A program made the translations under genes and the position numbers. From assembly GCA_005217565.1 (NCBI GenBank), contig SJCO01000009.1:1-64000 (forward strand): 64,000 nucleotides of DNA, written 5' to 3'. This document shows positions 39,148 through 62,331 of this stretch, one piece after another. The notes beneath the pieces are model-generated. The model made no database searches and was not told the DNA's origin. It saw only the letters and a list, made by a program, of their open reading frames with translations. The stretch comes from Puteibacter caeruleilacunae. Its GTDB lineage: Bacteria; Bacteroidota; Bacteroidia; Bacteroidales; Prolixibacteraceae. Each line of letters begins with the position of its first letter. Positions within the stretch are counted from its first letter, which is position 1.

Positions 39148-41718
39148 TTACTGTACTGAAATACTCAGTTTATCAGTTTTCTTCAAATTTGTCTTAGGTA
39201 ATTTTACAGTCAGTTTTTTCCCTTCAACCTTGAATTTTACATCAACTGCTTGCCCATTTAACATGGCAACAACATTTGATGGTTTACCTACTTTAATCAA
39301 GGTAACATTAACCTGATTAAGGCTTAATTCACCATAGGTAAGTTCAATCTCGAATGATTGTTTGTTACCTTTCAACTCCTGAGTATAAGATCCCCAACCT
39401 TCAGCAGCAATAAATGCCGATTGGAAACTTTTGGGAGTAAATTTAGGATCAAACTCAATAATTCCTTTTGGTCCATGATATACATATCCACCGGCAGCAA
39501 CAAAAGGAGCATAACCACTCATTGCTCTTGTGTAGTGATTTCCATACTCAATCTCATTATATGGATTTCTACGCTCTGCAGAATAACGATCATGAACTGC
39601 TTTCTCTACTTTCATTGCCTCATCAGTTAATCCTTCTGAGATAAGCGTAGCAGCCAATTGATGCTCTTGCCCTGTCCACATTTCGCTAAAATATCCTACA
39701 ACAAGCTTTTCCCAATCATTTTTGATAATACCAGGAGCTTTATCTGTTCCCCCTTTAGGGAATGTACACATGATAATTCCACGCTCATCATCATCGGCAT
39801 ACCAACGCTTGATAGGAATTGATGCAGTATCAAGATAAGCCTGATAGTTATCCACGTAATTGTACTTCATCATCGATTTTAGCGCAGTGATTACTTCATC
39901 TTGAGGTAAGATATGTCCTAATCCCATTTGAGCTGCCCAATACTGTCCTAAAAGCTGATCGGTATGACATCCATCGTTGGTATTTGGTGCTTCTGGGTGC
40001 TCTGGATCCAATTTCTGTATGAAATACTCACCATTAAACAACTCCTCAGAGATATTCTCGAATGCCATTGCAGAGATCTTCTTACACTCCTTTGCAAAAC
40101 GACTATCATTCATATCAAGAGCCATCTGCTCGCTAGCCTTAAGTGCTGCAGCATATAATCCACTAATCCAGGTTATCTTACCATACCACATACGATCAAG
40201 CGTATTGTACTGAATACCTTCCAGGATTCCATCAGCCTTACCGGTCTTTTCTTTATCCTGAGCAATCATGTATTGCATACTCTTCTTAATCTTACTCCAA
40301 TTCCTTTTCAAAAAGGCATTGTCGGCCGACATAGTATGCTCTCTATAAGTTCGAAGAATTGTACCTGCATGCCCATCAACAGCGTATCCACGACCATCAT
40401 GTTGACCAAATCCTGACATTTCACCGCGATAGCCAATAATACCTTCTTCTTTAAATGATAATCCGTAATCAACTTGTTCACGTAATTGGCTAGTCAAATG
40501 AGGGAATACACGTCCCATAGCCTGCTCATAATGAAATACGTGAGTACAAGTACCATGACCAAGATTTACACCCTCCATTGTATAGAAACGACCTTCATTT
40601 TCAGGATTATCAGTAATATCGTTCATTCTAATAGAAACGGTAGTAGCTAATGTACTTACATTCAAGAATGTTCTATCAAGAAACCACTTTGGTAGTGTTG
40701 AATTATACCAGGTTTTATTCCAATCTTTAGTTGCACTTAATAACCATTTATTTTGCAATACATAGTCACCAACTTCAGCAGCGTTTTTGAATTGTGCAGA
40801 ATAGTAATGACGAATGTTTTTTAAGCCTTTCCAGTGGTGAGCCATATCCCAAAGGTGTACATTAGGGAAATACCAGCTTAGAAGATAAGTGAAAGTCTTG
40901 CTCTCTCCTTTCTTAAGCTTTACAGATCCAGAAACAGTTCCTACTAGAGGATCAGCCATTTTAGCCTTTGCTTCTTTGTTTTTAGGATCTCCCATGTAAA
41001 CGTTAATTCCTCGTGGTTTGCCCGCCGTAGCAGCACCTTTTCCTTCACCAATTAGTGTTAGAGACATGTTTCCCCAATCAGCCAATTCTTCTTTGAGGCT
41101 TTCATCAGTTGAGCATACTAAACGTACATAGTCATCACCTTTGACAATACTATTTGTGTTTTGTACATCCTTACCTTTACCTCTAAAGTAACCAGCCATA
41201 TTTTGCAACCAACCAGTAATCTCAACAGTCACCTCTTTTTCCTGATTGTTGGTAACTGTATATTCTAAAACAGTCACTGGTAATCCTGAATTATCAGCAT
41301 CGGTTGGAATAAATGGTGAATAAGCCACTAATGAAGCATCTACAGGAAGGGTTGGATCCTTATAGTATACTTTTCCTACAGGATACTCTCCCTCAAAACT
41401 AATATCAGAGAAGCCACGCTCATTTAAAGCTCTGTGATGAACGCGATCTCCTTCAATGATTTTCAATCCAAAACCATTTGGGAACTTTTTCTCCTGAGTG
41501 AGAGGATTCAAGTAAAAACGATCACCAGGACCGCCTGGATCAACCATTCCAACGTTAAATATATCCCAATACCATAGCTGACCATCTCCTCCAAGATATA
41601 CCTGTCCTGTGCAAACTCCACTTACTGGCATACCAATATACTTGAGATTTTTGGTCTCAATTGCCTTCCCCATCAGAAACGGGAGCAATAAAACGATAGA
41701 TAAAATAACTTTTCTCAT
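39148..41718 (-). CDS. GH116-family glycosidase (DUF608-type), enzyme 1
   Basis: The 856-residue protein has a signal peptide (ILSIVLLLPFLMGKAIET). Residues ~25-290 form the N-terminal beta domain (GMPVSGVCTGQVYLGGDGQL, YWDIFNVG), and ~320-760 the (alpha/alpha)6 catalytic barrel with GTCTHVFHYEQAMGRVFPHL, the nucleophile region ILEGIQYNTLD (Glu500) and the acid/base region DGCHTDQLLGQ (Asp587). GH116 includes beta-glucosidases and beta-xylosidases, and a bacterial exo-beta-D-arabinofuranosidase has been placed in it. This one is a lone unit with a promoter-proximal direct repeat (41799-41834), downstream of the GH172/GH29 operon. Confidence 0.88.
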   Translation of the reverse strand: MRKVILSIVLLLPFLMGKAIETKNLKYIGMPVSGVCTGQVYLGGDGQLWYWDIFNVGMVDPGGPGDRFYLNPLTQEKKFPNGFGLKIIEGDRVHHRALNERGFSDISFEGEYPVGKVYYKDPTLPVDASLVAYSPFIPTDADNSGLPVTVLEYTVTNNQEKEVTVEITGWLQNMAGYFRGKGKDVQNTNSIVKGDDYVRLVCSTDESLKEELADWGNMSLTLIGEGKGAATAGKPRGINVYMGDPKNKEAKAKMADPLVGTVSGSVKLKKGESKTFTYLLSWYFPNVHLWDMAHHWKGLKNIRHYYSAQFKNAAEVGDYVLQNKWLLSATKDWNKTWYNSTLPKWFLDRTFLNVSTLATTVSIRMNDITDNPENEGRFYTMEGVNLGHGTCTHVFHYEQAMGRVFPHLTSQLREQVDYGLSFKEEGIIGYRGEMSGFGQHDGRGYAVDGHAGTILRTYREHTMSADNAFLKRNWSKIKKSMQYMIAQDKEKTGKADGILEGIQYNTLDRMWYGKITWISGLYAAALKASEQMALDMNDSRFAKECKKISAMAFENISEELFNGEYFIQKLDPEHPEAPNTNDGCHTDQLLGQYWAAQMGLGHILPQDEVITALKSMMKYNYVDNYQAYLDTASIPIKRWYADDDERGIIMCTFPKGGTDKAPGIIKNDWEKLVVGYFSEMWTGQEHQLAATLISEGLTDEAMKVEKAVHDRYSAERRNPYNEIEYGNHYTRAMSGYAPFVAAGGYVYHGPKGIIEFDPKFTPKSFQSAFIAAEGWGSYTQELKGNKQSFEIELTYGELSLNQVNVTLIKVGKPSNVVAMLNGQAVDVKFKVEGKKLTVKLPKTNLKKTDKLSISVQ

Positions 41719-41798
41719 GTGTAGTGATTTTCCTTTGTTAATTGATATTGGCGAATTTATTTATTACCCTTATTCTTGACAGCCCACATATCATGAAT

Positions 41799-41834
41799 AA
41801 AGGTGTACTATTCGTTACTTAAAAGTGCACTATT
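41799..41834 (-). promoter_or_regulatory. Direct repeat, 22 bp period, upstream of GH116 enzyme 1
   Basis: On the plus strand AAAGGTGTACTATT (41799-41812) and AAAAGTGCACTATT (41821-41834) match at 12 of 14 bases. The pair lies 81-116 bp upstream of the start codon, a usual place for an activator site. Confidence 0.45.
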
Positions 41835-41862
41835 TATGACTATCATACGTAATTAAACAAAA

Positions 41863-41928: not shown

Positions 41929-43395
41929 CTATTGCTTAATTTTAAATGTATAAGCAAATTCACATGGTAATTCATCCGGGGTAAGGGCTGGTACCTTTAG
42001 TATTAAGTTTCTACCCTTTTGTTCCCATTCAATATTGATATCTGTACCTAGTAGCGTTATTGTGCTATTAGATTTAATCTTCATATCGCGGATTACCAAT
42101 TTTTCTTTAGGCCATTTAGGAACGATAGCGAAGATATCTTTATCTTTCTTTGTAAAGAAAACTTCACGAACAGCATATCCTGGTTGTTGCTCAATGGTTT
42201 GCTTTATGATGAAATCAGCAGGAAGATAATGGGTACCTTCTGGCTTCCAATCTTTCTTTCCATCTTTCGACCATTGGCATGCCCTATCCCATTTACGAGA
42301 ACTATAAATTGCTTCTCCATTTACTTTTAGCCAATTTCCAAGAGATAATAAACGATCCTGCATAATTGGAGGAATATTTCCATATTTATCAGGACCAATA
42401 TCTAATAGAAGATTTCCACCATTACTCACAACATTCAGCAATAAATACACTAGTGTTCTGCGTGAAGCATAGTCCTGCACATCCTCGTTCACATTATAAC
42501 CAAATGAGAAACCGATACCTCGACATTCTTCCCAAGGATGAGTTCCGTCTAAACCTGACTGATACTCTGTAGAATAGTATCCACCATGGTTAAAGCGACA
42601 ACCTTTTCCCCAGCGGTCATTAATAACAACGTTATCTTTAATCGATGACTCATTAAATAACCATGCCAATAGTTCCTGAGAATGCCACTTCTCAGGTTCA
42701 ACATCCCAGTCTCCATCAGACCAGATCAATTCTGGTTTATAATTCTCAACCAGGTCTTTAAACTGAGGATGCATATGCTCAAGAGCAAATTTCTCAGGAT
42801 CTTTCTGATATAAAGGATTGAACCACTCATACAGTGAGTAATAAGTTCCAAACTTCACATCTGTCTTCTTTACTGCAAGTTCCAATTCTTTAAGTAAATC
42901 GCGATGTGCACCAACATCCTTTGCATTCCAAGGAAATCCCCAGGTCTTGTTGGCAGTCTCACTTGGCCACAAACAAAAACCATCATGGTGCTTTGAGGTA
43001 ATCATCATGTATTTAGCTCCTGCATCTTCAAAAAGCTTAGCCCACTCATCAGCATTAAAATCACGAGCAGTTAACTCTTTCCCAAAGTTATAGTAGCTAT
43101 AATGATCACCATAGGTTTTGCTATGATGGTCATATACCTCTTTTCCAGAAAAATTACCATTTCCGAAAAGGGTTCTATTTTGAAGCCAGTACTGATACCA
43201 CTCAGAATAAGTTCCTTTAGGACTCCATGCAGGTACAGAATACGGTCCCCAGTGAATAAAGATACCTAACTTCGCATCCTGAAACCACTCAGGAATAGGT
43301 CTGCTGTCAATTGATTCCCAGGTAGGCTCATATTTTTTTTGAGCAGAACATGATAGCCAAACACATACAGCCATCAATATTAATAATACTCTCAT
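41929..43395 (-). CDS. GH29 alpha-L-fucosidase, lipoprotein
   Basis: The 488-residue protein has a lipobox (MAVCVWLSCSAQ, Cys16). The GH29 barrel shows LGIFIHWGPYSVPAW, KYMMITSKHHDGFCLW, and ELIWSDGDWD with the expected nucleophile Asp227; GNLLLDIGPDKYGNIPP follows. A C-terminal beta domain starts near residue 400. The family releases alpha-L-fucose (some members related 6-deoxyhexoses). Length and motifs fit GH29 subfamily A-like enzymes with broad tolerance. The gene is 31 bp behind GH172 enzyme 1 and should be cotranscribed. Confidence 0.92.
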   Translation of the reverse strand: MRVLLILMAVCVWLSCSAQKKYEPTWESIDSRPIPEWFQDAKLGIFIHWGPYSVPAWSPKGTYSEWYQYWLQNRTLFGNGNFSGKEVYDHHSKTYGDHYSYYNFGKELTARDFNADEWAKLFEDAGAKYMMITSKHHDGFCLWPSETANKTWGFPWNAKDVGAHRDLLKELELAVKKTDVKFGTYYSLYEWFNPLYQKDPEKFALEHMHPQFKDLVENYKPELIWSDGDWDVEPEKWHSQELLAWLFNESSIKDNVVINDRWGKGCRFNHGGYYSTEYQSGLDGTHPWEECRGIGFSFGYNVNEDVQDYASRRTLVYLLLNVVSNGGNLLLDIGPDKYGNIPPIMQDRLLSLGNWLKVNGEAIYSSRKWDRACQWSKDGKKDWKPEGTHYLPADFIIKQTIEQQPGYAVREVFFTKKDKDIFAIVPKWPKEKLVIRDMKIKSNSTITLLGTDINIEWEQKGRNLILKVPALTPDELPCEFAYTFKIKQ

Positions 43396-43426: not shown

Positions 43427-45433
43427 TTAATTTATCATCAAATAGTCAAATCCAAGTTTATCGGCATCAACTGATTTGTCGTTTGTTCCTTTTACTTTAA
43501 ACATCAACGTATTATTGCCTTTAAGGATAACACCATCTTCATAGAAATATTTCTTCAGACTTAGCTTTTCATTGTACAAATCTAAATCTTCAAATACTTT
43601 CTTTCCATTTAGATAAACATCAACAATCACATAATCGGGCGACTGTGTGAAGACCATTTCCAGCTTCCCTTTTCTCTCTTTTTCAGAGTAAAACTCAGTA
43701 GTTAATCGGTCATTTTTATTAAGACCTTTCCAAAACAGGTGATTACGTGCACTCCAATCGTATGATAAGAACGCCTGAGTAATTACATCTCCACCATTGA
43801 TCTTCTTAATTATTAAATCTTCTCCTTCATAGCGATTAGACAGCTTCACTGGAATTTGAACACTTTCCACGTCAATAGCATGCTCGGCTTTTGACTCTTT
43901 GGTTCCATACCAATAGGTCGTTGGCGCATAATCCATCTTTACCTTATCCCAATGCCATATTTCAATATCGAACTTAAGTGAGCTATCAAAAGGGATGACA
44001 TCCAAAGATCGCCAACGATTGTTTACTGTTATACCAGGTGCACGATTTCCTTCTCCAATAGGCTGTGCAATAAACGGAGAAGTAAAATCAACAACACTAC
44101 ACCATGCATATCCATAATAATCCTCAGTACCGGTTCCAAAATGCGAAGGAAATGTTTCATTATCAACATAGATCTTCTCATCGCCTTCTCCCCACCAGGA
44201 AAAGCTATTATTGAATAATGTTAATGCATCTCCCACATACTTTCCTTTTCCTGATATGGTGATATAATTGACATCTTGCTTATTAGTTGTACTGATATCT
44301 GAATAAAGACGCCAGTTAGAGTGAAAATACAAACTACGATCATCCCATTTCCATGAGTCATGTTGAAGTTCAAGGTTAAGCACTTCAATTGGCTCCTCTC
44401 CATAATTATGGATATTAATGCGAGCACTCTTCTGAAATGGCATTGGGAAGTTTGTAGTCATGGTACCATCCTTATCAATTGAGCTAATCCACCCCTTATA
44501 TGGCGACAATTTATATCCTGTCCCGAAGAAATCACCTATCGGTACCCACACCATTTCCTTATCATCAAATTCAATCTCAATCACTGTAGAGCGCAGCGCT
44601 TGCTCTAATTCATCAGCATCAATCTGTAGTGATAGTTGACGAATTGCTCTGCTTCCTTCAACGATAAGCGACTTCGCTTCGCCAGCCTTTACAATCCCTT
44701 TTAAACGTTGTGTCTTATTAGCCTTTACATCTTTCAAGGGATTATCTAACTTTCGACGTACATCTTCAAGTTGTTTTAAATAGCGACCGTTTTCCCAAGC
44801 ATCTTTTTGATAGGTTTTAACAGAGGTTTTCTTATCATATTTCCGATAATTAATCTGGTAATATAAAACGTCATTTACCTCTTCATCTGCTTTTTGATAG
44901 GTCACTTTACAGTGTTTTCCATACGGTAATGGGAAATACAAATTATGTCCAGAGAACCATCCATCATTCTCAAGGAATACTGAGGCAGTCTGAGATAACG
45001 GTTCTCCAACGTACTTATTTGATGATATTATTTCATCAATTCGACCTTCTATTTGTGGCTCTTTGGCATTATCAAAATAAAAACGTAATGTTCCCATCGA
45101 AAACTGCTGAGCATGCCAGGTACTCCAAAATCGAACAATAGCTCCTGGGCCTTCTTCATCCATCAGAACATATTCCCTACGACCAGCAATAGTGTCAATT
45201 CTAACAAACTGACTAGCATCAGCATTATCGAACCATCCATCCTGCTCCTTAGTCAGTGATTTCCGTGAATAACTACTTGCCTGATGTGTAGTGAATTTAT
45301 GGAGTGGTAGTTTTGCCAAACCATCACGATCAGTCATTTCGTTCAATAAAGATGAAACTGTTACATCTTGAGCACACACTGTGCCACATATTAATAACAA
45401 CGATATAATTCCAAAAACAAGTTTTTTTACCAT
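43427..45433 (-). CDS. GH172 (DUF2961) glycosidase, enzyme 1, two-domain form
   Basis: From the ATG at 45433, which overlaps the preceding stop as TGATG, the protein has 668 residues; a GTG one codon earlier is also possible. A signal peptide ends at about residue 22. The DUF2961 beta domain carries EEGPGAIVRFW, WWGEGDEKIYVDNE (Glu near 417-420) and FGTGTEDYYGYAW (Glu near 438), the two conserved acidic motifs of GH172. Residues ~540-668 are an added beta-sandwich. GH172 enzymes described so far act on alpha-D-fructofuranosides and alpha-D-arabinofuranosides. It resembles enzyme 3 more than enzyme 2. Confidence 0.9.
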   Translation of the reverse strand: MVKKLVFGIISLLLICGTVCAQDVTVSSLLNEMTDRDGLAKLPLHKFTTHQASSYSRKSLTKEQDGWFDNADASQFVRIDTIAGRREYVLMDEEGPGAIVRFWSTWHAQQFSMGTLRFYFDNAKEPQIEGRIDEIISSNKYVGEPLSQTASVFLENDGWFSGHNLYFPLPYGKHCKVTYQKADEEVNDVLYYQINYRKYDKKTSVKTYQKDAWENGRYLKQLEDVRRKLDNPLKDVKANKTQRLKGIVKAGEAKSLIVEGSRAIRQLSLQIDADELEQALRSTVIEIEFDDKEMVWVPIGDFFGTGYKLSPYKGWISSIDKDGTMTTNFPMPFQKSARINIHNYGEEPIEVLNLELQHDSWKWDDRSLYFHSNWRLYSDISTTNKQDVNYITISGKGKYVGDALTLFNNSFSWWGEGDEKIYVDNETFPSHFGTGTEDYYGYAWCSVVDFTSPFIAQPIGEGNRAPGITVNNRWRSLDVIPFDSSLKFDIEIWHWDKVKMDYAPTTYWYGTKESKAEHAIDVESVQIPVKLSNRYEGEDLIIKKINGGDVITQAFLSYDWSARNHLFWKGLNKNDRLTTEFYSEKERKGKLEMVFTQSPDYVIVDVYLNGKKVFEDLDLYNEKLSLKKYFYEDGVILKGNNTLMFKVKGTNDKSVDADKLGFDYLMIN

Positions 45434-46923
45434 CACAGATTAGTATTAAGGTAATAAAATGCGGCACTCTTATAATTTGCTACAATAGTGTTATTCGTAC
45501 CATGCTCAATGGTCACATGAATTGATTCATTAAATGGAACAGGATCAATCAAATGCCAACGATAAGCTGATGCGTAACCTATCTCTTTCATTTCAAACTG
45601 TGGAAATCCATGTAGAGGCATGCTCCCTGAATTATTTAATCGTCCTGGTACCGAGTACCATCCACAATTGAAATAGTCCTCCGTTCCAGTTCCATGAATT
45701 CTCATTTCTCCATCACATACAAATACTTCGTCGCCTTCCAACCAAACAGGGAGCATCTGATCACCATGTGTTTTTGCTTCTGTCATTAAGAATGTTCCAA
45801 TGTATTTCCCATGACCAGTAGTTTTAAGAAACAGGAAGTCTTTTGCCTTGTCTTCAATAGGCTCTTCATGATTATAACTCACGTTTAAATATCCCCATTT
45901 ATCGTCTTCTGTCCTATCTACTACATCATACAATACATTCAACTCTAAATCCTTATTTGGAGCAACAAATTCTATTTTTGCCTGCTCTTTGAAAGGCATT
46001 GGAATCCGCGAATAGAAACCTCCCTCATCATAACCTGTAAAATATGACTTGTACAAGCTTTTAGAGTCTGGCATTGCAAAAAACATATTTGCAGGAACGT
46101 CAACCGATGGTTTAGTTTCATTATCCCAATATATTTTTATTCGGGAATCAAGAAAAGTATTGATATCAGCTTCTCCTACTTTTACCATTAGCTCTCTTAT
46201 TTCTCCTTGCTTCTTATTGATAATAATGCTCTTTGATTCATTGGCAGCAAGGTTTAGCTTATCAGAACCACTATAGTTAGCTTTTGAAACACCCGTGGTA
46301 AGTAATTTGATACCTTCAGCCATCAATGTCTCGTCAATATCGTTGATATTATCTCCACTATAGCTTTGGATCTCCTCTTCTCCAGTATATTGCTGTATAT
46401 TGATTTGATAGAAATGAACATCGTCTCCTTCAACTTCGACTCTACAATAATTGGAAAATGGAATTGGCACGTTACAGTAGTAACCACCTAAGCCTTCGCC
46501 AACCAAGCCTGGAGGAAATCCTTTCACATTCCCCGTAAATATATCTTCCAATGCAACATTAATAGCAGGTTTTGTTTTATCATCAAGATATATTCGAATG
46601 TGTTCACCTTTTAAATCTAACAATCCATCTCTATGGTGTATTGAATGAGTGAACCAAATTCTACTTACATATCCTCCGCCCTCTACTTCAGCCAGTACAC
46701 TATTTCCTTGCTCAAGACGCAGTTTAGAATATGTTCCTTTAAATCCATCATCATTCCCGCCCTTACGATCATAGCTACTAAACATGATCGCTTTCCAGTT
46801 GGATTGTAATTTTGAAATATTTGCAATATCAAACGACTCCTTATATACATTTATAGACGAATCGCATGACGCTAATACTATTGTCAAAAGAATTAATAAT
46901 ATCGAAATCCTATTCTTCTTCAT
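45433..46923 (-). CDS. GH172 (DUF2961) glycosidase, enzyme 2, short lipoprotein form
   Basis: I choose the ATG at 46923 because MKKNRISILLILLTIVLASC is then a good lipoprotein signal (496 residues); the frame extends to 46971. The core shows GGGYVSRIWFTHS, WLEGDEVFVCDGE and HGTGTEDYFNCGWY, matching the acidic motifs of the other two DUF2961 proteins here, but the extra C-terminal beta domain is missing. The stop overlaps the start of enzyme 1 (TGATG). As a lipoprotein it probably acts at the outer membrane, while the other two are soluble or periplasmic. Confidence 0.88.
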   Translation of the reverse strand: MKKNRISILLILLTIVLASCDSSINVYKESFDIANISKLQSNWKAIMFSSYDRKGGNDDGFKGTYSKLRLEQGNSVLAEVEGGGYVSRIWFTHSIHHRDGLLDLKGEHIRIYLDDKTKPAINVALEDIFTGNVKGFPPGLVGEGLGGYYCNVPIPFSNYCRVEVEGDDVHFYQINIQQYTGEEEIQSYSGDNINDIDETLMAEGIKLLTTGVSKANYSGSDKLNLAANESKSIIINKKQGEIRELMVKVGEADINTFLDSRIKIYWDNETKPSVDVPANMFFAMPDSKSLYKSYFTGYDEGGFYSRIPMPFKEQAKIEFVAPNKDLELNVLYDVVDRTEDDKWGYLNVSYNHEEPIEDKAKDFLFLKTTGHGKYIGTFLMTEAKTHGDQMLPVWLEGDEVFVCDGEMRIHGTGTEDYFNCGWYSVPGRLNNSGSMPLHGFPQFEMKEIGYASAYRWHLIDPVPFNESIHVTIEHGTNNTIVANYKSAAFYYLNTNL

Positions 46924-46944
46924 CTGTGTAAAATTTTTTGATTT

Positions 46945-47040
46945 CTGAATGTTCAAAAAATTTGAGAACATTCAGGAACTCACATAAATTTTAATCATCC
47001 GCGTGTGTGAATTTTGCGATGAAGAAAATTCATGTGAGTT
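46945..47040 (-). other. Two consecutive intercistronic hairpins
   Basis: CTGAATGTTC/GAACATTCAG forms a perfect 10 bp stem at 46945-46975. Directly beside it AACTCACATAAATTTT and its inverted copy (15 of 16 bases) form a stem at 46977-47040. They fill the gap between GH172 enzymes 3 and 2. No T run follows on the minus strand, so they are more likely mRNA processing or stabilising structures than terminators. Confidence 0.6.
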
Positions 47041-47053: not shown

Positions 47054-49105
47054 TTATTTTATCATCAAATAATCGACAATAATATCGCTCTCTTTTTTAG
47101 GATCTTTCTTACTAACAAGTTTGAAACAAATTTGGTTAACTCTCTTTAGAGAGATTCCTGTCAACTCAACAGTTTTTTCAGTTGAATTACTATCCCAGGT
47201 TATTGTTTTCTCTCCATTAACAGTAATCTCATAGATACCGTTTTTATTGATTGATTGAAATGCAATTTCCTTTGCTTGAGCATTGTTATCAGCATAGAAC
47301 TCAAATGTTCTGTAATCATTCTCACGTCCTCTATTCCAAATTAACGCTACTCCACCTGAAACCTCGTCTCCATAGTATCCATAAGTATTAGCTTCCTGTC
47401 CTACTGGACGAAGATTTTCACCTTCTAGCAGGCCATTTTCAGGCTCTGGGATCAAAATATCAAATCTTCCAAATGCAAGCTTAGCCTTGGCTCCATCATA
47501 ATCTGGCTCAATATTATCTTCTCCTCCAGGAAGCATATAAAAGAAGGTTGTTGGTGCAAAATTCAACTTGGTTTTTGTCCAGTGCCACATCTCCATATCA
47601 AACTTCAAAGACTTGGAAAAAGGCATTGCATCAAGACCTCTATAACGCATATTTACCGTCATATCGAATTTAAAGTTACCTCCACCAATTGGCTGCGATA
47701 AATAAGGATGATTGAAAGGATTATACTCACACCATGCATATCCGTAATAATCTTCTGTTCCAGTTCCAATAATTGAAGGGAAGGATTCTCCATCAAGATA
47801 TACTTTCTCATCACCTTCACCCCACCAGCTTTTCCAGTGACCTCCTAAAGAAGTATTAAACAGTGTAATAGCATCTCCAACATAAACTCCTTTTCCTGTG
47901 AGTGTAACAAAGTTCATATCAAAACAACCACCATATCCAATGCGAGCTTTATTATCTCCTGTCGATAGTTGTGTAAATTGTTTCCATGTACAGTGAAAGT
48001 ACATCGAATTATCAGTCCACTCATATGGCTTAGTAACCACGTCACCAACAACTCGATAGTCAACATTTCCTATGTTTTCAAAACTGATTTTACAATCCTT
48101 CTGAAATGGCATAATCCATGATGCACTCATAGTTCCATCTTCCTCTACTGTAGTATAATAGGTTTGAGACGAATGTAATTCATAACCAGTTCCAAAGAAA
48201 TCACCAATTGGACACCAAATAGTTTCCTCATTATCAAATGAACACTTCAGAATAATATCTCGGTATGCACGTTTTAAATCAGCACCTTTTATTCTCACAG
48301 AGATTTTACTAACTGCAGCTCCTAGCTCTTCTACTTTGATCGATTTCTCTTCACCAATTCCTACAGGTAAATCGAATACTCTTCCCTTAGCAATTGCTTT
48401 ATCTTCATTATTCAATAATACACTATTTACTCTTTGAATTAGCGCATCGTTTGCTTTGATCATTTCTTTTTCAAACGACTCAACTTTAGTTCCTTTTTTA
48501 TAAGAACGAGCATTAATACAGTAATACAGATATTCATCCTGACCTTTAGCTCTCCATTCATAAGTAACTTTACATCCTTTAGCATAAGGAATTGGAAGGT
48601 ATAGGTTATGACCACGTCTCATGTAACCTGTTTTTGGAGAAATTGAAGAACTTAAAGGAGCTCCAATCTCATTTTTACTTATGAAATCCAGTAACTTCTC
48701 CTCAATTACAGGCTGGTCTTCCCCATCAAGATATATTCTTAACATTCCACTACCATGGTTATTCCCGGTAAGCCAAAAACGAACAATTGAACCTGGCCCA
48801 TCAGTTTCCATTAGCACATATTCTTTTCGGTCGCCCTTCTCCTCCATTCTGATGAAATGATCACTATCACTATTGGCAAACCATGTAGAGTCGTTAATCG
48901 CAGTTGATCTTCGATCATAACTACTAAATTGTATAAATGTGTAATAAGGGTCAGGATATTGAGTAATTGCATCCTTATCAATCATCTCATTGAGTAGAGA
49001 ATTAAATGTTACAACACCCTTTTTGTTTGGAGCTCCTATAGCTCCCGTCGTCATCCAGATATTACCCAAAATTACCAGGGCAATAATTACCATTTTTCGT
49101 TTCAT
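47054..49105 (-). CDS. GH172 (DUF2961) glycosidase, enzyme 3, two-domain form
   Basis: The ATG at 49105 gives a 683-residue protein with a signal peptide (MKRKMVIIALVILGNIWM); a GTG at 49120 would add five residues. The DUF2961 core shows DGPGSIVRFWLTGN, WWGEGDEKVYLDGESFPSII and GTGTEDYYGYAWCEYNPF. A C-terminal beta-sandwich (about 560-683) ends in DIIVDYLMIK, very like the end of enzyme 1. The gene is the first of the GH172/GH29 operon, behind the terminator that closes the SusC/SusD operon, so it may have its own promoter in 49121-49300. Confidence 0.9.
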   Translation of the reverse strand: MKRKMVIIALVILGNIWMTTGAIGAPNKKGVVTFNSLLNEMIDKDAITQYPDPYYTFIQFSSYDRRSTAINDSTWFANSDSDHFIRMEEKGDRKEYVLMETDGPGSIVRFWLTGNNHGSGMLRIYLDGEDQPVIEEKLLDFISKNEIGAPLSSSISPKTGYMRRGHNLYLPIPYAKGCKVTYEWRAKGQDEYLYYCINARSYKKGTKVESFEKEMIKANDALIQRVNSVLLNNEDKAIAKGRVFDLPVGIGEEKSIKVEELGAAVSKISVRIKGADLKRAYRDIILKCSFDNEETIWCPIGDFFGTGYELHSSQTYYTTVEEDGTMSASWIMPFQKDCKISFENIGNVDYRVVGDVVTKPYEWTDNSMYFHCTWKQFTQLSTGDNKARIGYGGCFDMNFVTLTGKGVYVGDAITLFNTSLGGHWKSWWGEGDEKVYLDGESFPSIIGTGTEDYYGYAWCEYNPFNHPYLSQPIGGGNFKFDMTVNMRYRGLDAMPFSKSLKFDMEMWHWTKTKLNFAPTTFFYMLPGGEDNIEPDYDGAKAKLAFGRFDILIPEPENGLLEGENLRPVGQEANTYGYYGDEVSGGVALIWNRGRENDYRTFEFYADNNAQAKEIAFQSINKNGIYEITVNGEKTITWDSNSTEKTVELTGISLKRVNQICFKLVSKKDPKKESDIIVDYLMIK

Positions 49106-49300
49106 GTTAAAATACTCCACATTGTTAGTTAATAATCTTCAAATTAGCAATATGACACTCTTATTAAGAGAAAGTACTGTAGTGCGCCATAATTAGCTTT
49201 AATGTTTTAGCAAAGATAAACAACTTTGATTCTCCTCCCAATTTTTAACGTTACTTAACACTAAATGCAAACTACAAAATCCACTTTCCATATGCAAAAA

Positions 49301-54538: not shown

Positions 54539-55486
54539 TTATTTTTTCCGAATTATAACTTTAGGTTTATCTTTTGTGTTATACTTTCCTGGTATATATT
54601 GGGTTTCGATAGGATAACCCAATTCTAAGAGTTCCATAACCTGAGATACAGACTGATCTTCAAACACTGTCGTGATATTCATGTCTTTTACCATCTCATC
54701 TTCGATCATCACATCCACACCAAACCATCGACTCAGCAATACTACCGCGTCTTCCAGTCTTTCATCCTCAATATATAGTCTCCCTTGATGCCATGAAGCA
54801 TACTTTGCTACATCCTCCTCAAGAAATCTCCACTTATTGGTTTTAGTATTTAATACTGCCTTGGTTCCTGGATCTATCTTATATGTCCCTGCTCGTTCGT
54901 AACCTGTATTTTTCAATGACACAGATCCTTCTAGCAAGGCCACTTCTATATTGGCATCCTCCTCATAAGCCCTTACATTAAATTGTGTTCCCAATACTTC
55001 AACCCTTACATCGTCAGCCATCACATGAAATGGTTCACCGTTTTGCTTTTTTACATGCAGGAATATTTCTCCTGTTACATCCACCATGCGATTTCCTTTG
55101 AAAGGAATAGGATATTTCACTGTTGTACCTGCATTAATCCACATATCCGATCCATCAGGTAAAGTCAATTGTGAGCGAATACCATGTGGATTGCTTATTG
55201 TTTGCCATGCAAGTTCCTCTTTACTATCACCATCCATTACCACATAACTGATTGAGGCTATCAGTAGAGGAATGAATAAGATTGCTGCTACACGCTGCAG
55301 GTTTCTCATTATTCTATAAACCGGCTTACGTTCTCTGGTTTTTCTGAGTACACGATCAAAAGCTTGATCCGTATCAATTTGCTTTACACGCTGAATTTGC
55401 TGTGCAGCCATGTCAATTCTGGCTTCATCGCTCAACTCTCGACGCGTTTTGATTAATTGTTCTATTTTATTGTTCAGATGACTCAT
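54539..55486 (-). CDS. fecR: FecR-type anti-sigma factor, second PUL
   Basis: The 315-residue protein has a cytoplasmic helical start (1-75), one membrane helix (LQRVAAILFIPLLIASISYV, ~74-93) and the periplasmic FecR domain (HGIRSQLTLPDGSDMWINAG, VKYPIPFKGNRMVDVTGEIF, VRVEVLGTQFNVRAYEEDAN). The C-terminal part (VVLLSRWFGVDVMIEDEMVK) resembles a secretin/STN-like partner fold. It should control the ECF sigma factor encoded 0.4 kb upstream. Confidence 0.92.
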   Translation of the reverse strand: MSHLNNKIEQLIKTRRELSDEARIDMAAQQIQRVKQIDTDQAFDRVLRKTRERKPVYRIMRNLQRVAAILFIPLLIASISYVVMDGDSKEELAWQTISNPHGIRSQLTLPDGSDMWINAGTTVKYPIPFKGNRMVDVTGEIFLHVKKQNGEPFHVMADDVRVEVLGTQFNVRAYEEDANIEVALLEGSVSLKNTGYERAGTYKIDPGTKAVLNTKTNKWRFLEEDVAKYASWHQGRLYIEDERLEDAVVLLSRWFGVDVMIEDEMVKDMNITTVFEDQSVSQVMELLELGYPIETQYIPGKYNTKDKPKVIIRKK

Positions 55487-55894: not shown

Positions 55895-56518
55895 CTACAA
55901 CCAAAGATCTAAAAGTAAAAGTAGTCCGGCATAATCGCGAAGTTCTTCTCTAAGAGTTTTTAAGGCTTTACTGATTTGAGTTTCTACTGTACGTTTAGAA
56001 ATTCCCAATACATCAGCAATTTCATCATTCGAATATCCTTGAAAGCGACTCATCATGAACACTTCCTTACAACGCTCTGGTAATGCGTTTACCGCTTGTT
56101 GTATTTTATGTTGTAACTCTGAATCAACATAAACATCAGGATCAAATATCAAATCTTCCTCTGCTTCCCGCTTAAGTTCTTCCAGATATTCATCCTTTAC
56201 CTTTTGTTTTCGAAGAACATTAAGTGTTCTGTTTTTAATCGACTGAAAAAAGTAGGATTTTAAAGAATCTGATTGATTAATGGAATTATGCTTTTCCCAA
56301 ATACGAATAAAAAATTCCTGAACCACCTCTTCGGCCTGTGGTTGGGTCAAAGCAAAATTGGTCGCATAGATTACCAATCCAGGATAGTAATGCCTGAATA
56401 ACAGCTCAAAAGCTGTCACATCACCTTCCCTTAATCTATCGATTAACTGTGATTCTCTTATACCATTGATTAGCCGCATCAATACAAATGTAAAAAAATT
56501 AGGCATATAACATAACAA
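55895..56518 (-). CDS. ECF-type RNA polymerase sigma factor of the second PUL
   Basis: The 207-residue protein has region 2 (FELLFRHYYPGLVIYATNFA, AEEVVQEFFIRIWEKHNSIN, LKSYFFQSIKNRTLNVLRKQ) and region 4 (AVNALPERCKEVFMMSRFQG, NDEIADVLGISKRTVETQIS). It matches the ECF group typical of Bacteroidota SusC-linked systems. Together with FecR and the STN domain of SusC it forms a trans-envelope switch for the second locus. The true start may be at codon 13 (MRLINGIRESQLID), since the first 12 residues are unusual. Confidence 0.92.
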   Translation of the reverse strand: MLCYMPNFFTFVLMRLINGIRESQLIDRLREGDVTAFELLFRHYYPGLVIYATNFALTQPQAEEVVQEFFIRIWEKHNSINQSDSLKSYFFQSIKNRTLNVLRKQKVKDEYLEELKREAEEDLIFDPDVYVDSELQHKIQQAVNALPERCKEVFMMSRFQGYSNDEIADVLGISKRTVETQISKALKTLREELRDYAGLLLLLDLWL

Positions 56519-56553: not shown

Positions 56554-56582
56554 AATGCCATCACAGCAATTGTGATGGCATT
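56554..56582 (-). terminator. Intrinsic terminator behind GH116 enzyme 2
   Basis: AATGCCATCACA and TGTGATGGCATT form a perfect 12 bp stem around a 5-base loop, with a long T run on the minus strand. It separates this gene from the ECF sigma gene. Confidence 0.88.
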
Positions 56583-56604: not shown

Positions 56605-59600
56605 TTATTTGACCTTCTTGCCAGAAACAATAATGTGATCTACTTCAATATCGCCAAATTTAACATCAACGAAAGCCTTTCCATTCTTCAATCCAACATT
56701 ACCAAATCCTGATTCTGTTGAAAGGAATGACGTAAAATCATCACCTACCTTTGAATCGATGAATAGCGTTTTAGTCACAGCATCATAACGAATTCCAGTT
56801 AATCCTTGCAATAAACCATAACTTGCCATTGCTCTTGCATACCAGTGACCACACTCGTACTCATTAAAAGGATTACGCTTCTTACCATCATAACGACGTC
56901 GAACTTCCTGTACTATTTCAAGACCTTTATTCACCTCTCCTTTTAACATCAAGTGACTAGCCACTTGATACTCAATTCCGGTCCACACCTCATTACTATA
57001 TACGAATGGTAATGACAAAGCTCCTCCTTTTGGCCATGTACAAAGTAACAATCCACCTTCTTCTCCTGCTGCATAAGTAGGACGTTGTGGATTCGGGTGT
57101 TTTCTTAAATCTTTCTTCAAGTTATATTTATGAATCGCATTCAGATGACTGGTTACCTGACCATTATCAATCACCTCTGGCAATCCACAAACGCTTGCCA
57201 TCCACATTCCTAAAATACCATCCGATAAACATCCTGTTCCATACTGATATTTTGGACCTTCCTTCTCTAATAATTCTTTGGCTTCACTAGAGTAATTAGC
57301 AGTCCATGAACCTGCTGAGAATTCAACTGGATTCTTGGCTTCTAAGCCTTCCCATTGTATCTTTTGGAAGAAATATTCTCCATCATAAAGCTCCTTCTCC
57401 ATGAATTTCTTCCCTTTTTTCAATAGTTTTTCATACTGATCATATGGCTTATCAAGTTCTTTACTAATCTCAACCATCGCGGTTAACGCTCCCAGGTAAA
57501 AACTAGTACACATACCATCTGGCCCCCAGAATTCAATGTCATAAGTGTTGTGATGAGGCTCTTCAAGAATACCTTTTCCTTTTGGATCCCAAACACCAAT
57601 ACAGTAATCCAGACTTTTCTTAACCATTGGATAAAGATCTCTCATCCATGCATTATCTCCACTAATGCGCCAGTCACGATATACTTTCATGATACCACCC
57701 AACTGACCATCTGCAGCAGCATAAAAACCATGATCGACAGGTTTAATTGGTAATCCTGAGCGGAATGTTTGGTGACCTCTTGCATCCTGACTTGCTTTAA
57801 ACTCAGTTTCGCGCAAAGAACGCTCTAATGCTGGGAATAAATGAGGAATTGCTTGCGCGTAATTCCATACATGTGTACAACTACCTGCACAACATCCTCC
57901 AAGATCGTTACAACCTTCCCATGCCCACAAGCGACCATCATGCTGACGAAGTACTGTTGGCGACTTTAAGATTGTTAAATTCGCTGCTATTGCTTCAATT
58001 ACCTCTGCTGGTAAAGTTGACGCATAGAACGCATCACGGAAAGCCTCACTGTTCTTCTTTAAATCAATATAATGTAAACGTAAATATTTCTCTACGTCAT
58101 CAATACTCTTGAATCGAGATGCGTACCATGGCTTAAAGTAAACTTGTTCTTTGTTACATGAACCATCCTTGCAAGATTTATCTTTACATCCAATCTTTTG
58201 CCAATTGCCATAAGTCGATGCTTCAAAATCATTCAAAACAAATGCATCAGCAGAAACACTTTCAAGATTTTCACTTTTCTTGTTAGTCATCACAAACTGA
58301 TCAGCAAGGATATGTCCCCACCCACCTGTTCGTTGATCTACTATTTCTACTTTTACCATCTTTCCTTTCAATTTTGAAAGATCCCAGGTTATTTCTCTTA
58401 ATGTCTCATCTCCTTTTCCCGTTGCAGAAAACACAACTTCATCTCCTTCCTTTAGATTTACACAAGTTTCGCCTTTGAAATTACCTCCTCCAACTAAAAA
58501 CTTCATGTACTTCTTATCAACCATAAACTCTGGAGACACTAATGTTCCTGTCTGATTATCACCTGAAGGGTAAAATGTATTTACAAATTGGTTACCAATA
58601 AAACCAGTCACGTCACCTTGACTTTCAGCTTTTGATGGTGCAGGCTCATTACCGAATGCAGGTCCTGTAGATGCCGTTGATCTTCCATAACTCATCTTTG
58701 AATTAGGTGCATACCAGCAAAGTTGTAAGCGAATAGTTTTTTCTTCTCCTGGCTTTAATTTAAATGGAACAAATATTGAGGCACCAGGCGCATTCTTCTC
58801 TACCGGCGGGTTATTAGCCAGGATACCTTCTGAGATATTCTTCCAGGTAATGGTATTTGAATCAAACCATCCTCCTCTAAACCAACAATGATCAACAACC
58901 GCATTATTATCATCTACCGAAGCAGTCAACCATACATTATCAGGAGAATCAGGACTGTCCCCTTTCATTACACAAGTAAAACCATTTTTTGCTGAAATGA
59001 TAGAACGCTCTCCTCTTCCTCTAAGGATATGCTTCGAATTCCAAGAAAAAATAGACTCTTGCTCTTTCCCTGAATTATTTTTAAAATGATACTCAAATAT
59101 AGCTGAAGGCAGACTGGAATTATCTTCATCCCCAGGGATAAATGGACTCCATCCTGTTACTTTACACTCCAACGGAATCTCATCATCTTCTAACGAAAGT
59201 GTTGCAAATGGAAAACGCGCCATAAATTCACCTCCTTTGAAACGAGGCAAGCCATAGGTTGTTTCTGTTCCTCCACGTCCAGTATTTGGTCTACCGAAAA
59301 CACGTTCATATGGAACTTGAGTTTGAAGAAGTCTTGCTCCATCTTCTACGCCTTTTACCATAATGGCTGCATAAGCATATGGTTCATTAAATATATCAGG
59401 CGTATTGTTGATCGATACATGAGATATTGATCCTATCCCATCCATACAGATCATTCCTGATCCCAATCCCCCCAATGGGAAAGCAACCTTATTCAAATCA
59501 TCACAACAGTAATAATCATTAAAAGGTCGCACTCGCGTACATTCATGCTTTTGTGCATATACCCCGCAAGTCGAAATAATTAGTAATAGTGCTACAATTA

Positions 59601-59610
59601 ATTTCTTCAT
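56605..59610 (-). CDS. GH116-family glycosidase, enzyme 2, with an inserted beta-sandwich module
   Basis: The 1001-residue protein has a signal peptide (residues 1-20) and the GH116 N-terminal domain (AFPLGGLGSGMICMDGIGSI). The catalytic barrel carries SCTHVWNYAQAIPHLFPALE, ILEEPHHNTYDIEFWGPDG (nucleophile region) and GTGCLSDGILGMW (acid/base region). It is longer than its two paralogues because residues ~333-444 are an extra module (DVTGFIGNQFVNTF, TGTLVSPEFMVDKKYMKFLV, GGWGHILADQFVM) that resembles the beta-sandwich found at the N-terminus of many Bacteroidota GH32 fructanases. A segment that usually starts that module (LNDFEASTYGNW, ~459-470) lies after it. The protein forms its own unit, bounded by terminators on both sides. 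Confidence 0.85.
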   Translation of the reverse strand: MKKLIVALLLIISTCGVYAQKHECTRVRPFNDYYCCDDLNKVAFPLGGLGSGMICMDGIGSISHVSINNTPDIFNEPYAYAAIMVKGVEDGARLLQTQVPYERVFGRPNTGRGGTETTYGLPRFKGGEFMARFPFATLSLEDDEIPLECKVTGWSPFIPGDEDNSSLPSAIFEYHFKNNSGKEQESIFSWNSKHILRGRGERSIISAKNGFTCVMKGDSPDSPDNVWLTASVDDNNAVVDHCWFRGGWFDSNTITWKNISEGILANNPPVEKNAPGASIFVPFKLKPGEEKTIRLQLCWYAPNSKMSYGRSTASTGPAFGNEPAPSKAESQGDVTGFIGNQFVNTFYPSGDNQTGTLVSPEFMVDKKYMKFLVGGGNFKGETCVNLKEGDEVVFSATGKGDETLREITWDLSKLKGKMVKVEIVDQRTGGWGHILADQFVMTNKKSENLESVSADAFVLNDFEASTYGNWQKIGCKDKSCKDGSCNKEQVYFKPWYASRFKSIDDVEKYLRLHYIDLKKNSEAFRDAFYASTLPAEVIEAIAANLTILKSPTVLRQHDGRLWAWEGCNDLGGCCAGSCTHVWNYAQAIPHLFPALERSLRETEFKASQDARGHQTFRSGLPIKPVDHGFYAAADGQLGGIMKVYRDWRISGDNAWMRDLYPMVKKSLDYCIGVWDPKGKGILEEPHHNTYDIEFWGPDGMCTSFYLGALTAMVEISKELDKPYDQYEKLLKKGKKFMEKELYDGEYFFQKIQWEGLEAKNPVEFSAGSWTANYSSEAKELLEKEGPKYQYGTGCLSDGILGMWMASVCGLPEVIDNGQVTSHLNAIHKYNLKKDLRKHPNPQRPTYAAGEEGGLLLCTWPKGGALSLPFVYSNEVWTGIEYQVASHLMLKGEVNKGLEIVQEVRRRYDGKKRNPFNEYECGHWYARAMASYGLLQGLTGIRYDAVTKTLFIDSKVGDDFTSFLSTESGFGNVGLKNGKAFVDVKFGDIEVDHIIVSGKKVK

Positions 59611-59678
59611 CTGTTAAAAGATTTTTAGATTATTTAATTCTTTGATTAGTAGAGTAGTTAAAGATTCCATTCAAAAAA

Positions 59679-59710
59679 TACGGTCATTACCTCAATTGGT
59701 AAAGACCGCA
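59679..59710 (-). terminator. Intrinsic terminator behind GH116 enzyme 3
   Basis: TACGGTC/GACCGCA and TTACC/GGTAA form an imperfect 12-13 bp stem. On the minus strand it is followed by TTTTTTG. It divides GH116 enzymes 3 and 2 into separate units. Confidence 0.75.
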
Positions 59711-59733
59711 TCTAAAAACTTAAATGATTAGGT

Positions 59734-62331
59734 TTATTTGATTTTCACGATAACCTTATCGCTCTGTTTCAAATCAAGATTTAAGCCTGTGATTGTTACC
59801 TGACCTTCACTAAGGTCCCACTTAACCTTTTGATCGACACCATTTACAGCTACCGACACACTACGAGCTTCGCTAGCAGCTAAGGTCAATTGGTTTAGTT
59901 TAAGCTGACCATATTTCAATTCAATGGTATTGGTTTGTACTGCACCTTTTTTCGTTTGGGAGATATTTCCCCATCCTTCAGCAGCAGTAAAGAAACTTGT
60001 AAAATTGTTTTTCTGAATACGTGGATTAAACTTAAGAATACCTTCAGGTCCATTGTAAAAGTAATCCTCCAATGCAATTAAAATTCCCCACGAAGCCAAA
60101 GCTCTTGCATAGTGATCTCCACACTCAATTTCATTCCATGGATTATGCTTCTCAGGGCGATATCTTTCATGAACACCTTTCACGATTGATAATCCTTCTT
60201 CAATCATTCCATCATAGATCATGTTAGTAGCCACCTGATACTCAATCCCAGTCCATACCTCGTTACGATAGCGTACTGCATTCTCATTCAAGTGCTCACT
60301 AATAGGCCATGTACAGTTTAACAAACCAGGCTCACCTTCATGTGCATAATATCGCTCTGGAACAAACTTCTTTATATGTGGACCAACATCCTTTGTCCAG
60401 TTATACTTCCAAATCGACTCTAATGTCTTTTTCACATACTGTTCTGGATAGATATATCCAAGATTTAACTGATGTGCCCAGGTTTGTCCAAACATCTGAT
60501 CACTTAAACAACCTGTAGCATACTGAAACTTAGGATGCATTTTAAGATCAACCTCCTGGACAAAGTAATGCTCATTCCATAGTCGCTTTACAGAGTTGTT
60601 TTTACCATTTTCAAAGATACCTTCACAGTGCTTTGCAAAACCTTTGTCATTCATCACCAATGCCATCTCTTTTGCTGCCCTCAAGGCTCCTAAATATAAA
60701 CCTCCTACGTACGTATTAGGCCCCATAAAACTGATATCATATGTATTTGACTGTCTACCTTCAATCAATCCATTCATATCGCCATCACGCGCAATTACAT
60801 ATTCCATCGATTTCTTGATCTTACCCCAATTACGCGATAAAAAGAATTTGTCTTTCGACATTAAATACTCACGATATGCCTTCATTATTGCACCAATATG
60901 ACCATCAAGCAAAATACCACCCCAACCATTACGAGCAGCAATTGCACCATCATTTTGATACGAAGTTCCATAATCTGTTTTCTCTCTGATATTACGCTCT
61001 AACTCAGGAAACAATCTGGCAATAGCTTGCTCATAATTGTATACATGAGTACAGGTACCCACACAAGATCCAACACCTTCCCATGCCCAAAATTTATCGT
61101 TTGCCCACCACTGACAAGTCTCAGTAGCCAATGTTGACACAGGCATCATAATTCGCTGACGCAACCAATAAGGTAATGTTGAATTATTATACCAGGTATC
61201 GTGGAACGAATAAGTCTTCGATGTAAGTTGCGCGAAGTTAGCTTTTAATTGATTCGCAACGTCTAATGAAGAATCGAACCAGTTAGCATACATGTTTCCA
61301 ATTGAAGGACCTTTAGTAGGAATAGGTTTATTCCAATTACCACCTCCACCATAATGCATTGGTCGGTTCGGGAAAAACCAGGTTAGCAAGTAGGTAATCT
61401 CCTTTTCTTCACCTGCCGCTAGTTTGAATTCGGTAATCACTTCTCCAACTAGTTTTTCTTCTCTTGAAACTTCACTTAATTGGCTGGAATCTCCTTTTCT
61501 TGTATTTACTTTCGCCTCGTTATTAATAACCGACAAAGCAATATTTCCGAAATATGGATGATTTTGAACCTGCGCATCTTCTGGAATAAAATCCATATAA
61601 AGACTGGTTACTCCATTTGATCGCTTAATTTGATTACGTAACTTTCCTTTCACATCTTTTAAATCCATCATCACCGGATTCTGAAGTGCTCCATTTAAGT
61701 TAACGTCAACAGATTTCGACGACGTATTTTTGACCTTAAACTTTAATATTGTTGCTGGATTTGCTGAAGATTTGGCATCTAATGGCACGAATGGAGAAAA
61801 CACTTCCATATTTACAGCAACAGGAAGTTTCTTCTTCGAATCCTTATAGTTGATTTTTGCAATTGGATATTCACCTATAAAGCCAATATTATCGAAGTCC
61901 GATTTATTTAATTTTACGGTTTCTGTACCCTGATCCGACTTAACCGACAATTCAAAATATTGCTCTACATACCCCATCGGTTCAAACGTCTGATAACATA
62001 CCTTCCAAGGTCCATTTGGTGTATCAAAATTCAATAGATGATCAATACCATAACCTGTATTATAAGCATTGTTAGCAATCCACCAACAAGCAAGACTACC
62101 ATCTCCTCTTACATATAGTTGTCCTGCTGCAACTCCTCCACAAGGCATACCTATGGTTTTCAATTCTTCACCCTTATATACCTTCTGCTCACCAGGTGAA
62201 GTAAGACTTTTAATCCAGGTTTTACTTAATCCTTTGTCTTCCTTTATCACATGGCCAAACTCATTTTGAGCATTCAAGCCTGTAACAAAAGCCCAGCACA
62301 GCAATAAAATTCCCAATACTTTTCTCTTCAT
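59734..62331 (-). CDS. GH116-family glycosidase, enzyme 3
   Basis: The 865-residue protein has a signal peptide (MKRKVLGILLLCWAFVTGLN). Motifs follow the order of enzyme 1: TIGMPCGGVAAGQLYVRGDG in the beta domain, FWAWEGVGSCVGTCTHVYNY, then LIEGRQSNTYDISFMGPNT (nucleophile region) and YATGCLSDQMFGQTWAHQLN (acid/base region). A C-terminal Ig-like segment is added. Its closest relative in the window is enzyme 1. It probably lies in the periplasm or outside and removes a terminal sugar from the same glycan as the GH172 enzymes. A 151 bp gap separates it from the GH-A-like gene upstream. Confidence 0.88.
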   Translation of the reverse strand: MKRKVLGILLLCWAFVTGLNAQNEFGHVIKEDKGLSKTWIKSLTSPGEQKVYKGEELKTIGMPCGGVAAGQLYVRGDGSLACWWIANNAYNTGYGIDHLLNFDTPNGPWKVCYQTFEPMGYVEQYFELSVKSDQGTETVKLNKSDFDNIGFIGEYPIAKINYKDSKKKLPVAVNMEVFSPFVPLDAKSSANPATILKFKVKNTSSKSVDVNLNGALQNPVMMDLKDVKGKLRNQIKRSNGVTSLYMDFIPEDAQVQNHPYFGNIALSVINNEAKVNTRKGDSSQLSEVSREEKLVGEVITEFKLAAGEEKEITYLLTWFFPNRPMHYGGGGNWNKPIPTKGPSIGNMYANWFDSSLDVANQLKANFAQLTSKTYSFHDTWYNNSTLPYWLRQRIMMPVSTLATETCQWWANDKFWAWEGVGSCVGTCTHVYNYEQAIARLFPELERNIREKTDYGTSYQNDGAIAARNGWGGILLDGHIGAIMKAYREYLMSKDKFFLSRNWGKIKKSMEYVIARDGDMNGLIEGRQSNTYDISFMGPNTYVGGLYLGALRAAKEMALVMNDKGFAKHCEGIFENGKNNSVKRLWNEHYFVQEVDLKMHPKFQYATGCLSDQMFGQTWAHQLNLGYIYPEQYVKKTLESIWKYNWTKDVGPHIKKFVPERYYAHEGEPGLLNCTWPISEHLNENAVRYRNEVWTGIEYQVATNMIYDGMIEEGLSIVKGVHERYRPEKHNPWNEIECGDHYARALASWGILIALEDYFYNGPEGILKFNPRIQKNNFTSFFTAAEGWGNISQTKKGAVQTNTIELKYGQLKLNQLTLAASEARSVSVAVNGVDQKVKWDLSEGQVTITGLNLDLKQSDKVIVKIK

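Follow-up and report, generated by a model that had tools for sequence, protein, structure and literature searches.

Organization of the locus

The window, which is the whole stretch of DNA analyzed (64,000 bases), corresponds to bases 1-64000 of contig C212 (327,989 bases), part of a Bacteroidota genome of 7.97 Mb. The locus of interest contains the following features, with the sulfatase given in contig positions.

39148..41718, minus strand: GH116A, 856 aa, ExoMA2-type; Pfam N-terminal and catalytic domains, catalytic E 2.4e-36
41929..43395, minus strand: GH29 alpha-L-fucosidase, 488 aa; Pfam E 3.6e-115, best PDB match tissue alpha-L-fucosidase 7PLS (E 3.7e-106)
43427..45436, minus strand: GH172i, 669 aa, 1.5 DUF2961 domains and an extra beta-sandwich; Pfam DUF2961 in two stretches, E 9.6e-72
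45433..46971, minus strand: GH172ii, 512 aa, DgGH172b type with lipoprotein-like signal; Pfam DUF2961 in two stretches, E 1.3e-62
47054..49120, minus strand: GH172iii, 688 aa, 1.5 DUF2961 domains; Pfam DUF2961 in two stretches, E 3.3e-62
49366..51015, minus strand: SusD lipoprotein; Pfam SusD_RagB E 4.9e-49
51028..54417, minus strand: SusC TonB-dependent transporter with STN domain; Pfam Plug and STN
54539..55486, minus strand: FecR anti-sigma factor; Pfam FecR E 8.4e-17
55895..56518, minus strand: ECF sigma factor; Pfam Sigma70_r4_2 and r2
56554..56582, minus strand: intrinsic-terminator-like hairpin (12 pairs and a T-run), pattern match directly after GH116B
56605..59610, minus strand: GH116B, 1001 aa; Pfam N-terminal and catalytic domains, catalytic E 2.5e-56
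59734..62331, minus strand: GH116C, 865 aa, ExoMA2-type; Pfam N-terminal and catalytic domains, catalytic E 2e-52
62483..63859, minus strand: GH-A-clan TIM barrel with C-terminal beta-sandwich, GH140-like fold, 458 aa; weak DUF6298 match
63956..65284, minus strand: sulfatase, 442 aa, last 45 bases in the window; Pfam PF00884 E 3.1e-50 and SGSH_C

In the direction of transcription, the sulfatase gene is followed by those for the GH-A-like enzyme, GH116C and GH116B, and then by the hairpin. The second part of the locus runs from the ECF sigma factor through FecR, SusC, SusD, GH172iii, GH172ii, GH172i and GH29 to GH116A. A UvrD-type helicase gene bounds the locus upstream and a convergent gene (36708-39077) downstream, and the locus extends beyond the window end, with the sulfatase gene reaching from 63956 to contig position 65284. 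The Pfam analysis confirmed the preliminary description of three GH172 and three GH116 enzymes together with SusC/SusD and a GH29, with coordinates and strand as reported. The GH-A-like enzyme that was also described is present as a GH140-like TIM barrel (62483-63859), but lies just outside the end of the interval 39148-62331 given for the locus. The sulfatase had been missed, as the window takes in no more than the final 45 bases of its gene.

The hairpin at 56582-56554 (minus strand) is a probable boundary between two transcription units of the locus, although the overall number of terminator-like sites obtained by pattern matching was not above that in shuffled sequences. Inspection of the translations by eye indicated secretion-signal-like N-termini in the locus proteins, with a Cys-containing lipoprotein-like signal in SusD, GH172ii and GH29. 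Genome-wide, 16 ORFs for GH172 and 10 for GH116 were counted.

The window also contains a second PUL (24239-32106), which encodes a DUF4959/DUF5126/DUF5000 lipoprotein, SusD, SusC and FecR, with a further gene at 32176-32760. Another PUL in the same genome (L104), which contains two GH172 genes and the 698-aa protein described below, encodes a SusC with 63% and a SusD with 48% identity to those of the second PUL, but similar SusC/SusD pairs are also located elsewhere (L175). A peptidase-C39 ABC exporter adjoins a LanC-like protein at 3104-6540, which suggests peptide export or lanthipeptide-like modification. Genes for a GH78-like rhamnosidase, a DUF4838/GH20-domain protein and a second DUF4838 protein are consecutive at 6983-15124.

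The GH116 enzymes

Comparison with solved structures placed all three GH116 proteins with ExoMA2 (8IC6), an exo-beta-D-arabinofuranosidase of GH116 subfamily 4. For GH116A, the E-value was 9.8e-76 against ExoMA2 and 9.1e-21 against the best beta-glucosidases. For GH116C, ExoMA2 was likewise the best match (1.2e-85), with beta-glucosidases at 1.3e-25. GH116B matched ExoMA2 at 5.9e-104, and its sole other GH116-like match was the Tlr0193 protein (9.4e-7).

In ExoMA2, Glu431 and Asp557 are catalytic, and His446 and Arg483 are distinguishing (PMC10509167). In the multiple alignment, E431/H446/R483/D557 were aligned in GH116A, GH116B and GH116C, although the Arg483 equivalent of GH116C is alignment-dependent, with Gln at this position in the pairwise HMMER alignment. 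The three proteins share the His/Arg pair of ExoMA2, as compared to Asp/His in TxGH116. Since all full-length ExoMA2-type sequences in the comparison have these four residues, they assign the three proteins to the group but do not prove specificity for D-arabinofuranose (D-Araf).

In a tree of 33 GH116 sequences, GH116B was nested in a clade of 19 rows (support 100/100). Most of the GH116 proteins in it come from PULs that also encode FucI and GH172, often together with GH183. This clade formed a joint group with ExoMA2 (100/99), and the nearest neighbour of GH116B was a Mariniphaga protein (63% identity). GH116C belonged to a clade (99/99) with proteins of two other PULs, both with FucI (L021 and L076), and two paralogues from its own genome. 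GH116A paired with its own paralogue on contig C35, the pair being the sister of the GH116C clade. The GH116A and GH116C clades have no characterized member in the tree. A beta-glucosidase function of the GH116 enzymes was rejected on the basis of the PDB scores and the tree. Judged from its sequence and placement, GH116B is most likely an exo-beta-D-arabinofuranosidase.

The GH172 enzymes

In all three GH172 proteins, Pfam identified a second, partial DUF2961 stretch, a "1.5-domain" layout that has been described for DgGH172b (PMC10115798). The double jelly-roll fold and the catalytic Glu pair are shared with the Bifidobacterium dentium GH172 enzyme alphaFFase1 (PMC8605356), which differs in its domain layout and in having Gly at position 299. 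The Glu pair (E270/E291) is intact in all three proteins, within WWGE..GTGTED in GH172i and GH172iii (WWGE..GTGTED..WC in the latter) and VWLE..GTGTED in GH172ii. The Trp267 equivalent is lacking in GH172ii. The residue after Trp298 (position 299) is Cys in GH172i and GH172iii, as in DgGH172c and BACUNI_00161, and Tyr in GH172ii, as in DgGH172b; ExoMA1 has Asn. Since Gly299 in alphaFFase1 admits the hydroxymethyl group of fructose (PMC8605356), the Cys or Tyr in each of the three proteins disfavours a function as alpha-D-fructofuranosidases.

Typing against the characterized GH172 exo-alpha-D-arabinofuranosidases (a, b or c type) identified one of the three proteins, GH172ii, as b-type, and placed the other two in a separate clade. 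GH172ii was collinear with the DgGH172b family over its full length (29-34% identity), and the support for their group increased from 95/60 in the first tree to 100/98 after removal of long-branch rows. Activity of DgGH172b on D-arabinan has been published (PMC10115798). GH172i and GH172iii were recovered in a clade (13-14 rows, bootstrap 99-100) that lacks a characterized member. In a FucI-containing Dysgonomonadaceae PUL, two further GH172 genes, one of them from the GH172i clade, are located between FucI and an FGGY kinase (L040:12731-16451), which provides a direct lead on this clade. An origin of GH172i and GH172iii as a recent tandem pair was absent from the best tree but not rejected (p-AU 0.116).

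The AlphaFold model of GH172i (pLDDT 85) showed the double jelly-roll type of fold of GH172, and its first matches were the four solved GH172 proteins; a further ~139 columns matched the module MiXBM. In alphaFFase1, Tyr187' from the neighbouring protomer enters the active site, and the Y187F variant stays active (PMC8605356). The equivalent residue in the C-terminal domain is lost in GH172i (Asn) and GH172iii (Gly). The N-terminal half-domain of GH172i contains the segment PLPYGKHCKVTYQKADEEVNDVLYYQINYRKY, as compared to PMPFNKKAKIEIVNDNELPFILYFNIDYEMY in alphaFFase1, and that of GH172iii the segment LYYCINARSY. Because the Tyr is gone from the C-terminal domain and a matching segment is found in the N-terminal half-domain, the half-domain of GH172i and GH172iii probably replaces the missing protomer face, as far as can be read from the sequences. 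A regular-expression scan did not single out the Tyr-bearing half-domain segment. The corresponding half-domain position is Phe in both GH172ii and DgGH172b, but GH172ii also keeps a Tyr in its C-terminal domain.

Accessory enzymes and the transport system

The sulfatase contains the motif CTPSR (CxPSR) and is located 96 bases upstream of the next gene; its PDB matches were spread over many specificities. For the GH-A-like protein, the sequence gave only the weak match to DUF6298. The best structural matches to its AlphaFold model (pLDDT 79) were GH140 enzymes (Z 28-31 at 10-13% identity). Orthologues with 58-65% identity were found in relatives, in unrelated gene contexts.

The closest foreign SusC (37%) and SusD (43%) were found in L076, a FucI PUL from a MAG labelled Prevotella sp. 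TD116_bin59. The window SusD formed a clade with that of L076 and three from its own genome (L191, L109 and L194), apart from the SusD proteins linked to GH183. Near the own-genome members are genes for GH9-like, GH116C and GH95 proteins (L109), for a GH29/GH43-type protein and a sulfatase, with a GH116 pair further along the contig (L194 and L101), and for a GH172 (L191). Thus, fucosidase, sulfatase, GH116 or GH172 genes recur around this type of transporter in the genome.

GH183, isomerase and kinase genes

No GH183 (DUF4185) was identified in the locus or in the 8-Mb genome, the best match (E 0.01) being below the cut-off. The Dysgonomonas proteins used as positive controls were recovered at 1e-94, so a GH183 hidden elsewhere in the genome was rejected as an explanation. 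Thus, the absence of GH183 that had been described for the window holds for the whole genome.

No gene for FucI or an FGGY kinase was found among the locus genes. A FucI gene is located on another contig (C1:603038), and its product is 67% identical to FucI of the PUL42 type described below. A GH172a orthologue (76%) is also encoded elsewhere in the genome. Far from the locus, genes for a sulfatase, this FucI, DUF6786, an MFS permease and a GntR-type regulator are clustered on contig C1 at approximately 601-609 kb (L196:7129-14714); this cluster is likely to be a unit for D-arabinose and L-fucose catabolism.

Comparison with related loci

The Dysgonomonas gadei PUL42 D-arabinan locus (PMC10115798) was read in a Dysgonomonas genome with a GH172c 98% identical to the DgGH172c query (L131-L133). 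The locus in this genome contains an FGGY kinase, two GH183, GH172c, two SusC/SusD pairs and FucI, together with GH172b, a 698-aa protein, DUF6786, GH116, GH172a and LacI. PUL42 and the window locus share a GH172 trio, GH116 and SusC/SusD. The PUL42-type GH116 is 53% identical to GH116B over 707 residues, and its GH172b is 30% identical to GH172ii. However, GH183, FucI, the kinase, GH172c, DUF6786 and the 698-aa protein are missing from the window locus, which instead has two more GH116, the GH29, the GH-A enzyme and the sulfatase. The D-arabinan cluster of Microbacterium arabinogalactanolyticum (PMC10509167) has the pairing of GH172 (ExoMA1) and GH116 (ExoMA2) in common with the window, but contains an ABC transporter and four GH183, whereas the window has SusC/SusD, no GH183 and no GH172 of the ExoMA1 clade.

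The 698-aa protein (L132:12357-14453) had no match in Pfam, NCBIfam or PDB sequences, and is conserved at ~59-65% in many GH172/FucI PULs (L025, L026, L035, L043, L062, L072, L073, L095 and L097), with a relative in the genome studied here (L104:2-1564). With this distribution, it is a candidate for an as yet undescribed family of D-arabinan-degrading enzymes.

With the DgGH172c core as query, 80 named loci were retrieved. A GH29 was present in one and a sulfatase in three of these. FucI was found in 17 of the 21 loci with GH116, as compared to 17 of the 59 without (p 6e-5), an association that is conditional on the selection of the loci by GH172c and on their relatedness. Three genomes of the same family (G076, G083 and G092) contain loci with 68-79% DNA identity to a Mariniphaga locus (L072), from which a position of the genome near Prolixibacteraceae may be inferred.

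Like the window, L076 contains a GH116C orthologue (57%) alongside the closest foreign SusC/SusD; unlike the window, it has FucI, an FGGY kinase, GH172c and GH172b in the locus, and no GH29 or sulfatase was matched there. The other PUL with a GH116C orthologue, L021, contains GH172a, DUF6786, FucI, GH172c and GH116. L021 and L076 tie the window locus to the GH172/FucI system. Relatives of GH116B, GH116C and GH172ii are located inside FucI-containing PULs of the D-arabinan type.

No strong match to GH116C or GH172i was obtained in 394 other genomes of the class, and relatives of GH172ii, with only 32-35% identity, were found in 5 of 148 relative genomes. Given these few and weak matches and the unrelated contexts of the GH-A orthologues, the cluster as a whole was without a match elsewhere, and conserved synteny was dropped as a clue to the substrate.

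Proposed function

Starting from the gene content, the family and clade placements, the catalytic residues and the absence of GH183, we infer the substrates, the order of steps and the regulation of the locus. With about even confidence, we consider it to be an exo-acting SusC/SusD PUL under ECF-sigma/FecR control, for a glycan that is sulfated and fucosylated and contains D-Araf in both alpha and beta linkage, or a sugar of equal ring stereochemistry, and that would be trimmed from its non-reducing ends. Oligosaccharides would be captured by SusD and imported by SusC. The sulfatase would remove sulfate, and the GH29 alpha-L-fucose or beta-D-arabinopyranose, which is a stereochemical analogue of alpha-L-fucose. 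GH116B, and probably also GH116C and GH116A, would release beta-D-Araf, and GH172i, GH172ii and GH172iii alpha-D-Araf. The GH140-like GH-A enzyme may cut internally or at the core, standing in for the missing GH183. Isomerization of the released D-arabinose and L-fucose would fall to the FucI from contig C1. Among the individual enzymes, action on D-Araf is best supported for GH116B and reasonably well for GH172ii and GH116C, and is only a possibility for GH172i, GH172iii and GH116A.

These results partly support the preliminary interpretation as a D-arabinan or other furanoside locus with deoxysugar branches. As a lead, a glycan related to D-arabinofuranosides and carrying deoxysugar branches is well supported, but not a D-arabinan in the mycobacterial sense, against which count the genome-wide lack of GH183, the SusD lineage, and the GH29 and sulfatase that are foreign to the D. 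gadei-type locus. The GH116 proteins grouped with ExoMA2, and not with beta-glucosidases, the placement that had been named as contrary evidence together with GH172 clades of other specificity; GH172ii was of the DgGH172b type, and GH172i and GH172iii fell in a clade that has no characterized member. Because the usual chain-cutting enzyme is missing and a fucosidase and a sulfatase are added, the target probably differs from mycobacterial arabinan and is a sulfated, fucosylated glycan. Since GH183, the defining feature of D-arabinan PULs, is missing, the locus would not be filed among these, despite a similar mode of working.

Tentatively, the glycan may be an undescribed one, sulfated and fucosylated, with D-Araf or an analogue such as L-fucofuranose, and the clades of GH172i/GH172iii and GH116A/GH116C may represent new specificities that operate without GH183. 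No polymer combining sulfate, fucose and D-Araf was found in the literature library searched.

L-fucofuranose, L-galactofuranose and D-altrofuranose have the same ring stereochemistry as D-Araf. That the enzymes act on such a look-alike in a sulfated, fucose-rich glycan, with D-arabinose not involved, seems rather unlikely to us. The recurrence of fucosidases and sulfatases around this type of SusC/SusD, the use of FucI also for L-fucose and the location of four of the six enzymes in uncharacterized clades are consistent with this idea, but GH116B is placed firmly within the D-arabinan-PUL clade. We know of no activity on L-Fucf, L-Galf or D-Altf in the GH172 or GH116 families, and galactan was not acted on by the GH172 enzymes tested (PMC10115798).

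It is also unlikely that the locus is a PUL for D-arabinan of the mycobacterial type (arabinogalactan/LAM), in which GH183 was lost or never present and which is fed by oligosaccharides from other organisms. GH116B and GH172ii are of the types found in D-arabinan PULs, FucI and a GH172a orthologue are encoded elsewhere in the genome, and L076, with FucI and related SusC/SusD, has no GH183 in the 20.7 kb of sequence covered. However, the SusD belongs to another lineage than those linked to GH183, the locus has no GH172c, the GH172a gene is located outside it, and GH29 and sulfatase are foreign to the PUL42-type locus examined and rare among the 80 loci. Utilization of ordinary alpha-fructosides or beta-glucosides by GH172 alpha-D-fructofuranosidases and GH116 beta-glucosidases, both activities that occur in the wider families, is highly improbable given the replacement of Gly299 in all three GH172, the ExoMA2 His/Arg pair instead of the TxGH116 Asp/His in the GH116, and the lack of an identified fructan enzyme among the scanned locus genes.

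Genes for enzymes acting on D-arabinofuranose were described only in 2021-2023. In the papers cited here, the D-Araf loci are mostly taken to target cell-wall glycans of mycobacteria or related ones. The presence in a single PUL of six relatives of these enzymes, with a fucosidase and a sulfatase and no GH183, suggests a wider occurrence of D-Araf, or of a look-alike, among environmental glycans. The locus also supplies uncharacterized clades of GH172 and GH116, for which pNP substrates suitable for direct assays already exist.
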